DNA of 58,628 bases, from positions 1 through 58,628 of the forward strand of contig NZ_AOJK01000064.1 of the NCBI RefSeq assembly GCF_000336875.1. Direction: 5' to 3'. This stretch comes from Halorubrum californiense DSM 19288 (GTDB taxonomy: Archaea; Halobacteriota; Halobacteria; Halobacteriales; Haloferacaceae). The notes under the pieces are model-generated. The model was given only the letters and a program-made list of their open reading frames with translations, made no database searches and was not told the DNA's origin. Numbering within the stretch: position 1 is the stretch's first letter; each line of letters opens with the position of its first letter. The position numbers and the translations under genes are program-made. This document shows, one piece after another, positions 10,367 to 43,247 of the stretch.

Positions 10367-10500
10367 GACGTTGACGCTCCGGCCGGGCGGCTCTCCTCGG
10401 GTGACTCCGTGACCGAAACGGAGACCCCCGAAGCTCCGGTTCCCCGGCCGTACGACTGTGTTTCTGTTCATACACCAGCGGTTGACACGACCCGATCCGA

Positions 10501-10800
10501 AGCCCCAGCAGCGAGGCAGACGCACGCTCGCTGCGGTCCTCAGTCGCTCACTCCGTTCGCTCCTTGCGGTCCTTGCCTCGCCTGCGCCCGCCTCGCTGCT
10601 GCCCCTTCGAGTCCCGCCCCGACCACACGGCACCGCAGCCTCACACCTCCCCAGCCACGTCGCTGGCACCCTCCGCTTCGCTCCGGGGCCAGCGACTCCC
10701 TCGCGCGTGCTGTCGCCGGCGCGAAGCGCCGGCTTCCAGAGGGACCTTCGGTCCCTCGCGGCTCGGCCGCGGGGCGGCCTCGCAGGCACGCGCCACCGCC
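10501..10800. repeat. Hairpin-rich dispersed intergenic repeat, copy A
   Basis: A 300-base GC-rich element between rnz and the RPA gene that shares order and sequence blocks with 42784-43125. It starts with AAGCCCCAG and ends with GGCACGCGCCACCGCC. Nested inverted repeats are visible: 10507-10518 with 10590-10601 (12 of 12 pairs), 10659-10667 with 10688-10696 (9 of 9), and 10703-10710 with 10786-10793 (8 of 8). Two more short hairpins sit near 10717-10770 (GCCGGCGC-GAA-GCGCCGGC and GAGGGACC-TTC-GGTCCCTC). Stems differ from copy B by paired changes. No plausible protein is encoded. It could be a structured RNA or a non-autonomous repeat. Confidence 0.85.
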
Positions 10801-11070
10801 CCTCTCGCCACCCTTGTCGGATCCTCGCTCCGTGCGGCTGCGATCCGTGTGATCGTTCCACTCGAAACGAAGCCCGCGTGCGGCTGACGAGCGTCTGACG
10901 CAGTGAGGACCGCTCTGTCGGCTGATCGTCTCGGATCGAAAGAATCCCCCACAGCGGTCCTCAAACGGGCGTTTCGTTCCACTTTCACCGCGGTCACGTA
11001 CGTTTTAATACCATCTGGAACCAACCATCGTACGCCTCCCACAGAAACAAGACCGGAGGCGGAGACACCC
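10801..11070 (+). promoter_or_regulatory. RPA operon upstream region with TATA box and Shine-Dalgarno site
   Basis: After the repeat comes about 200 bases without clear features, then TTTTAATA at 11003-11010. That predicts a transcript start near 11035 and a leader of about 35 bases. GGAGG at 11055-11059 lies 11 bases before the ATG at 11071, a proper ribosome binding site that is less common in this mostly leaderless genome. Confidence 0.6.
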
Positions 11071-42731: not shown

Positions 42732-42783
42732 TCGGCTGATAGCTTATAGATAGCTGACTGCGGATCGGCAGTGAACACCTCCA
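42732..42783. other. Short AT-rich spacer before repeat copy B
   Basis: Contains the direct repeat GATAGC-TTATA-GATAGC and probably the end of the upstream transcript. No gene. Confidence 0.4.
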
Positions 42784-43125
42784 AAGCCCCAGTCGCGAGG
42801 CGGGCGCACGCTCGCTGCGCGCCTCACTCGGTCGCTACCGCTCCCTCGTTGCGGTGCTTACGTCGCCTGCGCCCGCCTCGCGACTGCCCCTTTGAGTCCC
42901 ACCCCGCACAGCACCGCAACCGCCGGAAGACGGTCCTGCTCGCTCCTTCCAGTCGCTGCGCGGGCTGCGACTTCCGTGCTCCCGCTCGCTCCCTTCGGTC
43001 GCTCGCGGGACCGCACCTCACACCTCCCCAGCCTCGTCAGTCGCCCTCGCTTCGCTTCGGGCGACTGACTCCCTCGCGCGTGCGATTCGCGCCTTTCGGG
43101 CGCTCATCGGCACGCGCCACCGCCG
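42784..43125. repeat. Hairpin-rich dispersed intergenic repeat, copy B
   Basis: Second copy of the element at 10501-10800. Shared blocks appear in the same order: AAGCCCCAG, GCGCACGCTCGCTGC-like, CGCCTGCGCCCGCCTCGC, CTCACACCTCCCCAGCC, GACTCCCTCGCGCGTGC and GGCACGCGCCACCGCC. Three stems match copy A: 42790-42807 with 42869-42886 (18 of 18 pairs), 43036-43046 with 43059-43069 (11 of 11) and 43076-43083 with 43110-43117 (8 of 8). The middle 100 bases (about 42915-43015) are not shared with copy A. The rest of the gap to 43247 shows nothing recognisable. Confidence 0.85.
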
Positions 43126-43247
43126 CGTTCATTCATAAATAGTCGGCGCCGTCGCTCACGACTGTGAAAACGTCGCCGGCGGCGGTCCACTGTGCCCACA
43201 GTATCCGTCCGGACCGCCGTCGACGTCGCGTCGGGGGCGGAGTGCCC

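Follow-up and report, generated by a model that had tools for sequence, protein, structure and literature searches.

Mobile double-hairpin elements of mitochondria have stems that vary in sequence while their pairing is kept. Among bacterial repeats, the REP, BIME and REPIN families are palindromes tagged by GTAG and CGTC motifs (PMC3733652, PMC3116915). The elements considered here were met in a haloarchaeal window (i.e., the whole stretch of 58,628 nucleotides that was analysed), and they apparently constitute a large, undescribed family of hairpin-forming DNA repeats. A search of the open literature found no description of the family, though one might exist in a subscription paper, and Rfam gave no match in the window, the best weak family score, with HEARO and CRISPR-DR included, being that of CRISPR-DR20 (27.3 bits vs. 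a gathering threshold of 42).

Results

An earlier note on this DNA had reported two elements about 32 kb apart with a fixed order of blocks, and this description held: copy A (10497–10799, from its left block to the ACCGC end) and copy B (42781–43123) have an identical block order, with 32.3 kb between them, and both copies, with their parts as located below, lie on the forward strand. Whole elements sit in intergenic DNA. The three stems that the note had called nested are indeed three, but they are consecutive (P1, P2 and P3), and each copy carries an extra nested hairpin module absent from that account, within P3 in copy A and in the interval between P1 and the C-rich block in copy B. The observations on the stems themselves were borne out: both arms of stem 1 change together (CAGCAGCGAGGC/GCCTCGCTGCTG in copy A, CAGTCGCGAGGC/GCCTCGCGACTG in copy B), stem 2 pairs with its own partner in each copy (GTCGCTGGC/GCCAGCGAC in A, GTCAGTCGCCC/GGGCGACTGAC in B), and stem 3 (GCGTGC/GCACGC) and the unpaired block CTCACACCTCCCCAGCC are kept in both.

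Copy A opens with the left block CCGAAGCCCCAG (10497–10508), whose CGAAG pairs with the CTTCG of the block to the right of P1, CTGCCCCTTCGAGTCCC (10599–10615); in most copies this pair is CAAAG/CTTTG. Hairpin P1 spans 10507–10600, with arms at 10507–10530 and 10580–10600, and is followed by the unpaired, conserved C-rich block (10640–10656), by P2 (10659–10696), a hairpin also present at no fewer than five further loci of the same genome, by the conserved linker TCCCTCGC (10697–10704) and by P3 (10705–10793), of which GCGTGC/GCACGC are the outer arms. The module inside P3 (10712–10761) is a double hairpin of the form GCCGGCGC-GAA-GCGCCGGC-TTCC-AGAGGGACC-TTC-GGTCCCTC, and it is found in both orientations within the family. 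Just downstream of copy A, at 10904–10963, lies a 14-nt inverted repeat, TGAGGACCGCTCTG/CACAGCGGTCCTCA, which has GCGGTCCTCA in common with the tip of P1.

Copy B is preceded by a leader unit with the TATA-like CTTATAGATA (42743–42779), which at the same locus of other species is repeated in tandem up to four times. Its P1 (42791–42885) and right block CTGCCCCTTTGAGTCCC (42884–42900) are separated from the C-rich block (43017–43033) by the extra module, a 91-nt hairpin unit (42923–43013) that is common to other copies (14 forward matches in a set of 236 copies). There follow P2 (43036–43069), the same linker TCCCTCGC (43070–43077) and P3 (43078–43115); just beyond the 3' end is a TATA-like box, TTCATAAATAG (43132–43142), that is kept at this locus in most congeners.

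The note had assigned the two copies to a repeated family, as yet unnamed, whose stems stay paired, and had proposed a search for more of them in relatives. The family proved to have far more than two members: there are about 90 intergenic elements in the window's own, Halorubrum-type genome, in which a whole-element search gave 58 matches (best non-self E 1e-93) and the C-rich block CTCACRCCTCCCCARCC gave 92 matches at no more than two mismatches vs. 0 for the reversed control, so that the repetition lies far beyond chance. All 30 congeners sampled carry the C-rich block, with 15–194 matches each, and the named relatives in a search with the contig were nearly all Halorubrum. In this genus the element begins with a 51–57-nt leader (TATA-like box ... 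GAACACC), CCAAAGCCCC, P1 and GCCCCTTTGAGTCCCRCCCC and continues with a variable CRCACCGC-type linker, CTCACRCCTCCCCARCC, P2, TCCCTCGC, P3 (arms GCGTGC/GCACGC) and the end GCCACCGC; with its three hairpins in fixed order it is about 300–600 nt long.

Of 73 genera of Halobacteriales that were sampled, 14, in several families, have the core of the element (C-block/P2/TCCCTCGCGC); none of 77 genomes sampled from the rest of the phylum has it. Other genera have the blocks in common and unrelated stems, and some are missing P1; the short unpaired blocks are near-invariant across genera and families while the stems turn over. One genus (g3, L214–L227) has a second conserved, G-rich block, CGGGGGGAGGGGTGGGGACTC, after the core and opposite in sense to the C-rich block, and many copies from family f17 (L291–L303) have a conserved AGCTAGCT-type motif some 60–100 nt upstream of the C-rich block.

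Copies from the window's own genome (L001–L114, e.g., L021, L009 and L002) contain nested modules of about 45–90 nt, each made of two hairpins and short linkers and lodged inside different stems. Three types were distinguished (GTC-GCCGGCG..CGCCGGC-TTCCAG-AGGGACC..GGTCCCT, the TCGTGATGACGA type and the GATTGGCTCACGAGA type), and these modules, some of them present in both orientations, resemble small mobile units in their own right. A Nextera adapter, AGATGTGTATAAGAGACAG, within the element at L054 (G000 contig C82, near 11175) is a local assembly artefact.

Covariation, another check that the note had suggested, was scored in the window's own genome (G000) and in a second species (G135), and like the search for more copies it bore the note out. 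In P1, 138 double-change cells were counted over 68 own-genome copies (shuffled mean 46.5, maximum 59) and 204 over 94 copies of G135 (shuffled mean 52.4, maximum 73); for P2 the values were 56 vs. 24.8 shuffled in the own genome and 76 vs. 22.6 in G135, all of these counts ignoring kinship among copies. P3 was largely invariant in this comparison. The counts establish that pairing is kept but not its cause, on which they are silent because the hairpins move as units. The arms of the stems are near-perfect Watson-Crick complements, with the stem sequence itself free to vary; of 63 own-genome copies that could be scored, 5 have an inverted P1 interior, and parts of hairpins and nested modules are also found inverted.

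Both flanks of 31 own loci were recovered in 1.6 Mb of G135, where the flanks are 89.5% identical. Of these loci, 29 are occupied in G135 by an element that sits at the corresponding site and points the same way, one holds a reversed element and one holds none. Within the element, the likeness of an orthologue vs. that of paralogues was 0.70/0.70 for P1, 0.62/0.61 for the linker, 0.67/0.65 for P2 and 0.66/0.65 for P3 (0.65/0.63 for 60 nt of the leader), and the orthologue ranked among the top three of 94 copies in only 0–1 of 28 cases. Over the first 40 nt downstream it did so in 7–8 of 28 (20-nt pieces) or 14 of 28 (a single 40-nt piece), and at 40–80 nt in 18–20 of 28; upstream, the likeness of orthologues recovers more slowly. 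Twelve P2 hairpin sequences are identical between the two genomes, counting any loci.

At the locus of copy B, about 20 congeners have the element at one site with differing stems and differing numbers of leaders; L160, L161 and L165 hold decayed elements and L171–L173 none, and divergence at these empty orthologous sites precludes the exact junction that a target-site duplication would call for. At L165 (genome G159) the decayed element is accompanied by an AT-rich insert of about 1.2 kb with a membrane-protein-like reading frame. Positions of the elements are therefore stable and their stems homogenised among copies or replaced, an argument from orthology that draws mostly on one second species, G135, with support from the copy B locus in many.

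The note had read its paired changes as a structured RNA or a non-autonomous element, with repair between arms as an option. The latter part of that reading fits at least as well, given the hairpin inversions, the modules in both orientations and the lack of sequence memory at orthologous sites; selection at the RNA level is not proven by paired change alone, because whole hairpins are exchanged between copies.

Several features of the hairpins are strand-specific (tandem G.A, GNA loops and G.U-type wobbles), and they point to the complementary strand. In a scan for symmetric hairpins among 338 P2 sequences (those of family f17 taken partly from genus-survey matches), symmetric internal loops of the top strand were overwhelmingly TC facing TC, and also TCC facing TCC (TC/CT 80 and TC-CC-CT 47 in family f1; TC/CT 34 in f17). 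Three-base loops were TNC in 104 of 140 cases in f1 and 14 of 18 in f17, with GNA in 3 and 2, respectively; a shuffled control gave TNC in 4 of 40. Read on the bottom strand, these loops become tandem 5'-GA/AG-3' and GNA triloops. When whole elements were scanned, which includes nested modules of both orientations, the top strand had 32 GNA vs. 58 TNC loops, and bottom-strand GNA triloops were closed by C-G in 56 of 58.

Mismatches between covarying states at the fixed P1 pairs 8–16 of G000 and G135 numbered 41 of A.C type vs. 10 of G.T type on the top strand (cells that are not independent), which is the pattern that a folding bottom strand would give. A test of 1x1 G.T vs. A.C mismatches over folded stems gave no clear top-strand signal. 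Strand tests based on mismatches and on G.U content were discarded, in that SRP RNA, used as a control, shows no strand difference in either; because both fail to separate its strands, the general argument from G.U pairs is weak and the asymmetry at fixed pairs is the one that stands. Mini-hairpins of the form d(C-GNA-G) are unusually stable folds of DNA. One report describes the use of such a mini-hairpin to stabilise DNA (PMC4686876). From these patterns we infer that the element is designed to fold not on the strand read in the window but on its complement, the G/A-rich bottom strand.

Discussion

On balance, we favor the explanation that these are non-autonomous, chromosomal, REP/BIME-like intergenic hairpin elements, specific to Halobacteriales and under concerted evolution, whose bottom strand would fold, whose palindromes would be swapped and whose folded form the host would recognise. 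Each element is a set of short invariant blocks in fixed order, split by three hairpins, P1, P2 and P3, that vary freely while still pairing. Its structure would be read on the G/A-rich bottom strand, on which the internal loops would form tandem sheared G.A and the hairpin loops GNA triloops. Copies might exchange their stems by gene conversion, by ectopic recombination or through template switching at the hairpins, and because whole palindromes would change places, pairing would survive every swap. Recognition of the folded strand by a host factor would keep the invariant blocks and the fold, and the form recognised could be a transcript or, during replication or recombination, single-stranded DNA. 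The absent sequence memory argues for gene conversion among copies. Haloarchaea are polyploid and have efficient gene conversion, which makes homogenisation plausible.

A more specific version, which we put forward tentatively, is a natural family of folded single-stranded DNA elements. The bottom strand, with its C(GNA)G mini-hairpins, its sheared G.A pairs in tandem and four conserved G-tracts around the base of P1, would be recognised during replication or recombination. This would happen at about 100 chromosomal sites that stay fixed while other copies keep overwriting the hairpin cassettes in them. The four G-tracts around the base of P1 could possibly form a G-quadruplex junction in the KCl-rich cytoplasm.

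Signals in the flanks bear on the alternative that each genome has about 100 genes for structured noncoding RNAs, with a TATA box in the leader (or, for the other strand, beyond the 3' end), whose RNA fold is kept. Besides the strong covariation, it is supported by a TATA-like box at a fixed distance in G135: 63 of 93 copies have one 35–40 nt before P1 and 54 of 93 have one 12–22 nt past the element end, vs. 0.9% of background intergenic windows. The upstream box would set a top-strand start shortly before P1, and it would be easier to reconcile with transcription of the top strand than of the bottom strand. Leader units are duplicated in tandem (up to seven extra in G135), and RNA, too, often contains tandem G.A. 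But most copies of G000 are without these boxes (12 of 68 upstream, 13 of 68 downstream), whole hairpins are swapped and inverted, the loops are three-base GNA and not GNRA or UUCG tetraloops, G.U pairs amount to 2–4% vs. about 9% in SRP RNA, and Rfam has no match; we regard RNA genes as an unlikely account of the family.

Gene context was assessed with heuristic gene calls (ORF length, acidity and GC3). All four arrangements of flanking genes occur, those with the upstream gene directed towards the element being in mild excess; it is neither a 3'-UTR element nor a promoter element as such.

As unlikely as RNA genes is a MITE- or REP-type transposon moved in trans, its copies now mostly fixed remnants and its apparent orthology due to old insertions and recurrent use of sites. 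The elements are dispersed, non-coding and numerous, some congeners have an empty site at the locus of copy B (L171–L173), and one locus of G135 holds a reversed element. Such a transposon is, however, at odds with the 29 of 31 loci of G135 that are occupied in the same orientation, and no terminal inverted repeat is obvious in the element (by inspection, the left end CCAAAGCCCC and the right end GGCACGCGCCACCGC are not complementary). The searches for carriers found no element in phages, one in viral contigs and four partial matches in plasmids; this near absence rules out phages, viruses and plasmids as carriers, and the element is chromosomal. Transposase genes of the Y1 type (PF01797) do not track it: there are none in G309 and G222, which have 40 and 30 core matches, several occur in element-free genomes, and a full-motif copy lies within ±1.5 kb of only 2 of 30 Y1 loci, each time near the far edge. 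A Y1 transposase as partner is thus not supported, its genes being neither tracked nor flanked by the element.

Orientation around orc1 in G135 is what replication-coupled insertion into single-stranded DNA might give: left of orc1 (270 kb) there are 3 forward and 16 reverse copies, and at 263–800 kb 26 and 13 (Fisher 5.7e-4), with gene strands unbiased, a break (L174–L193 and L421–L440; G135 0–800 kb) that was noticed before testing and in one genome. It was not seen on the G000 contig with orc1, where clear copies are all forward, and neither a simple expectation from IS200/IS605 nor a rule for the full genome accounts for it; a replication-linked orientation is only a lead.

That the elements are functionless palindromic junk, their shape kept by arm-to-arm repair alone, would agree with near-perfect arms and free stem sequence but is quite improbable, in that unpaired blocks stay near-invariant across genera and families despite the turnover of stems, site occupancy is conserved, and repair between arms alone would not be expected to produce the asymmetric TC/TC and TNC pattern.

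The element, which is not in Rfam, is among the commonest intergenic features of Halorubrum (15–194 per genome). Its fixed locations combined with a total loss of sequence memory represent extreme, measurable concerted evolution outside rRNA genes, and they carry a caution, i.e., that swapping whole hairpins can yield strong covariation. Strand-specific folding in a chromosome, possibly of single-stranded DNA, can also be put to the test in this family.

Among known systems, haloarchaeal SRP RNA (Rfam RF01857), our control, resembles the element in its long GC-rich fold, similar size and presence in the same genomes; it differs in being single-copy in nearly all genomes, in evolving slowly and in its higher proportion of G.U pairs. 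Compared by description, the mitochondrial mobile double-hairpin elements (PMC4478555, PMC5910586) are similar in that hairpin pairs are inserted into one another, whereas the present family resides in cellular archaeal chromosomes and has long elements, invariant blocks and stable syntenic positions. Like REP, BIME and REPIN, it consists of short palindromic modules that are intergenic, non-autonomous and high in copy number, arranged as mosaics of hairpins and linkers with modules in both orientations. The GTAG tag is absent from its invariant blocks, and CGTC, where it occurs at P2 of Halorubrum, is part of the stem and missing in other families. Unlike those bacterial repeats, the element is far longer (about 300–600 nt) with three hairpins in fixed order, does not flank a Y1/RAYT gene, and keeps its sites while its stems are replaced wholesale; and it is archaeal, confined to one order, with a G.A/GNA design on the bottom strand.
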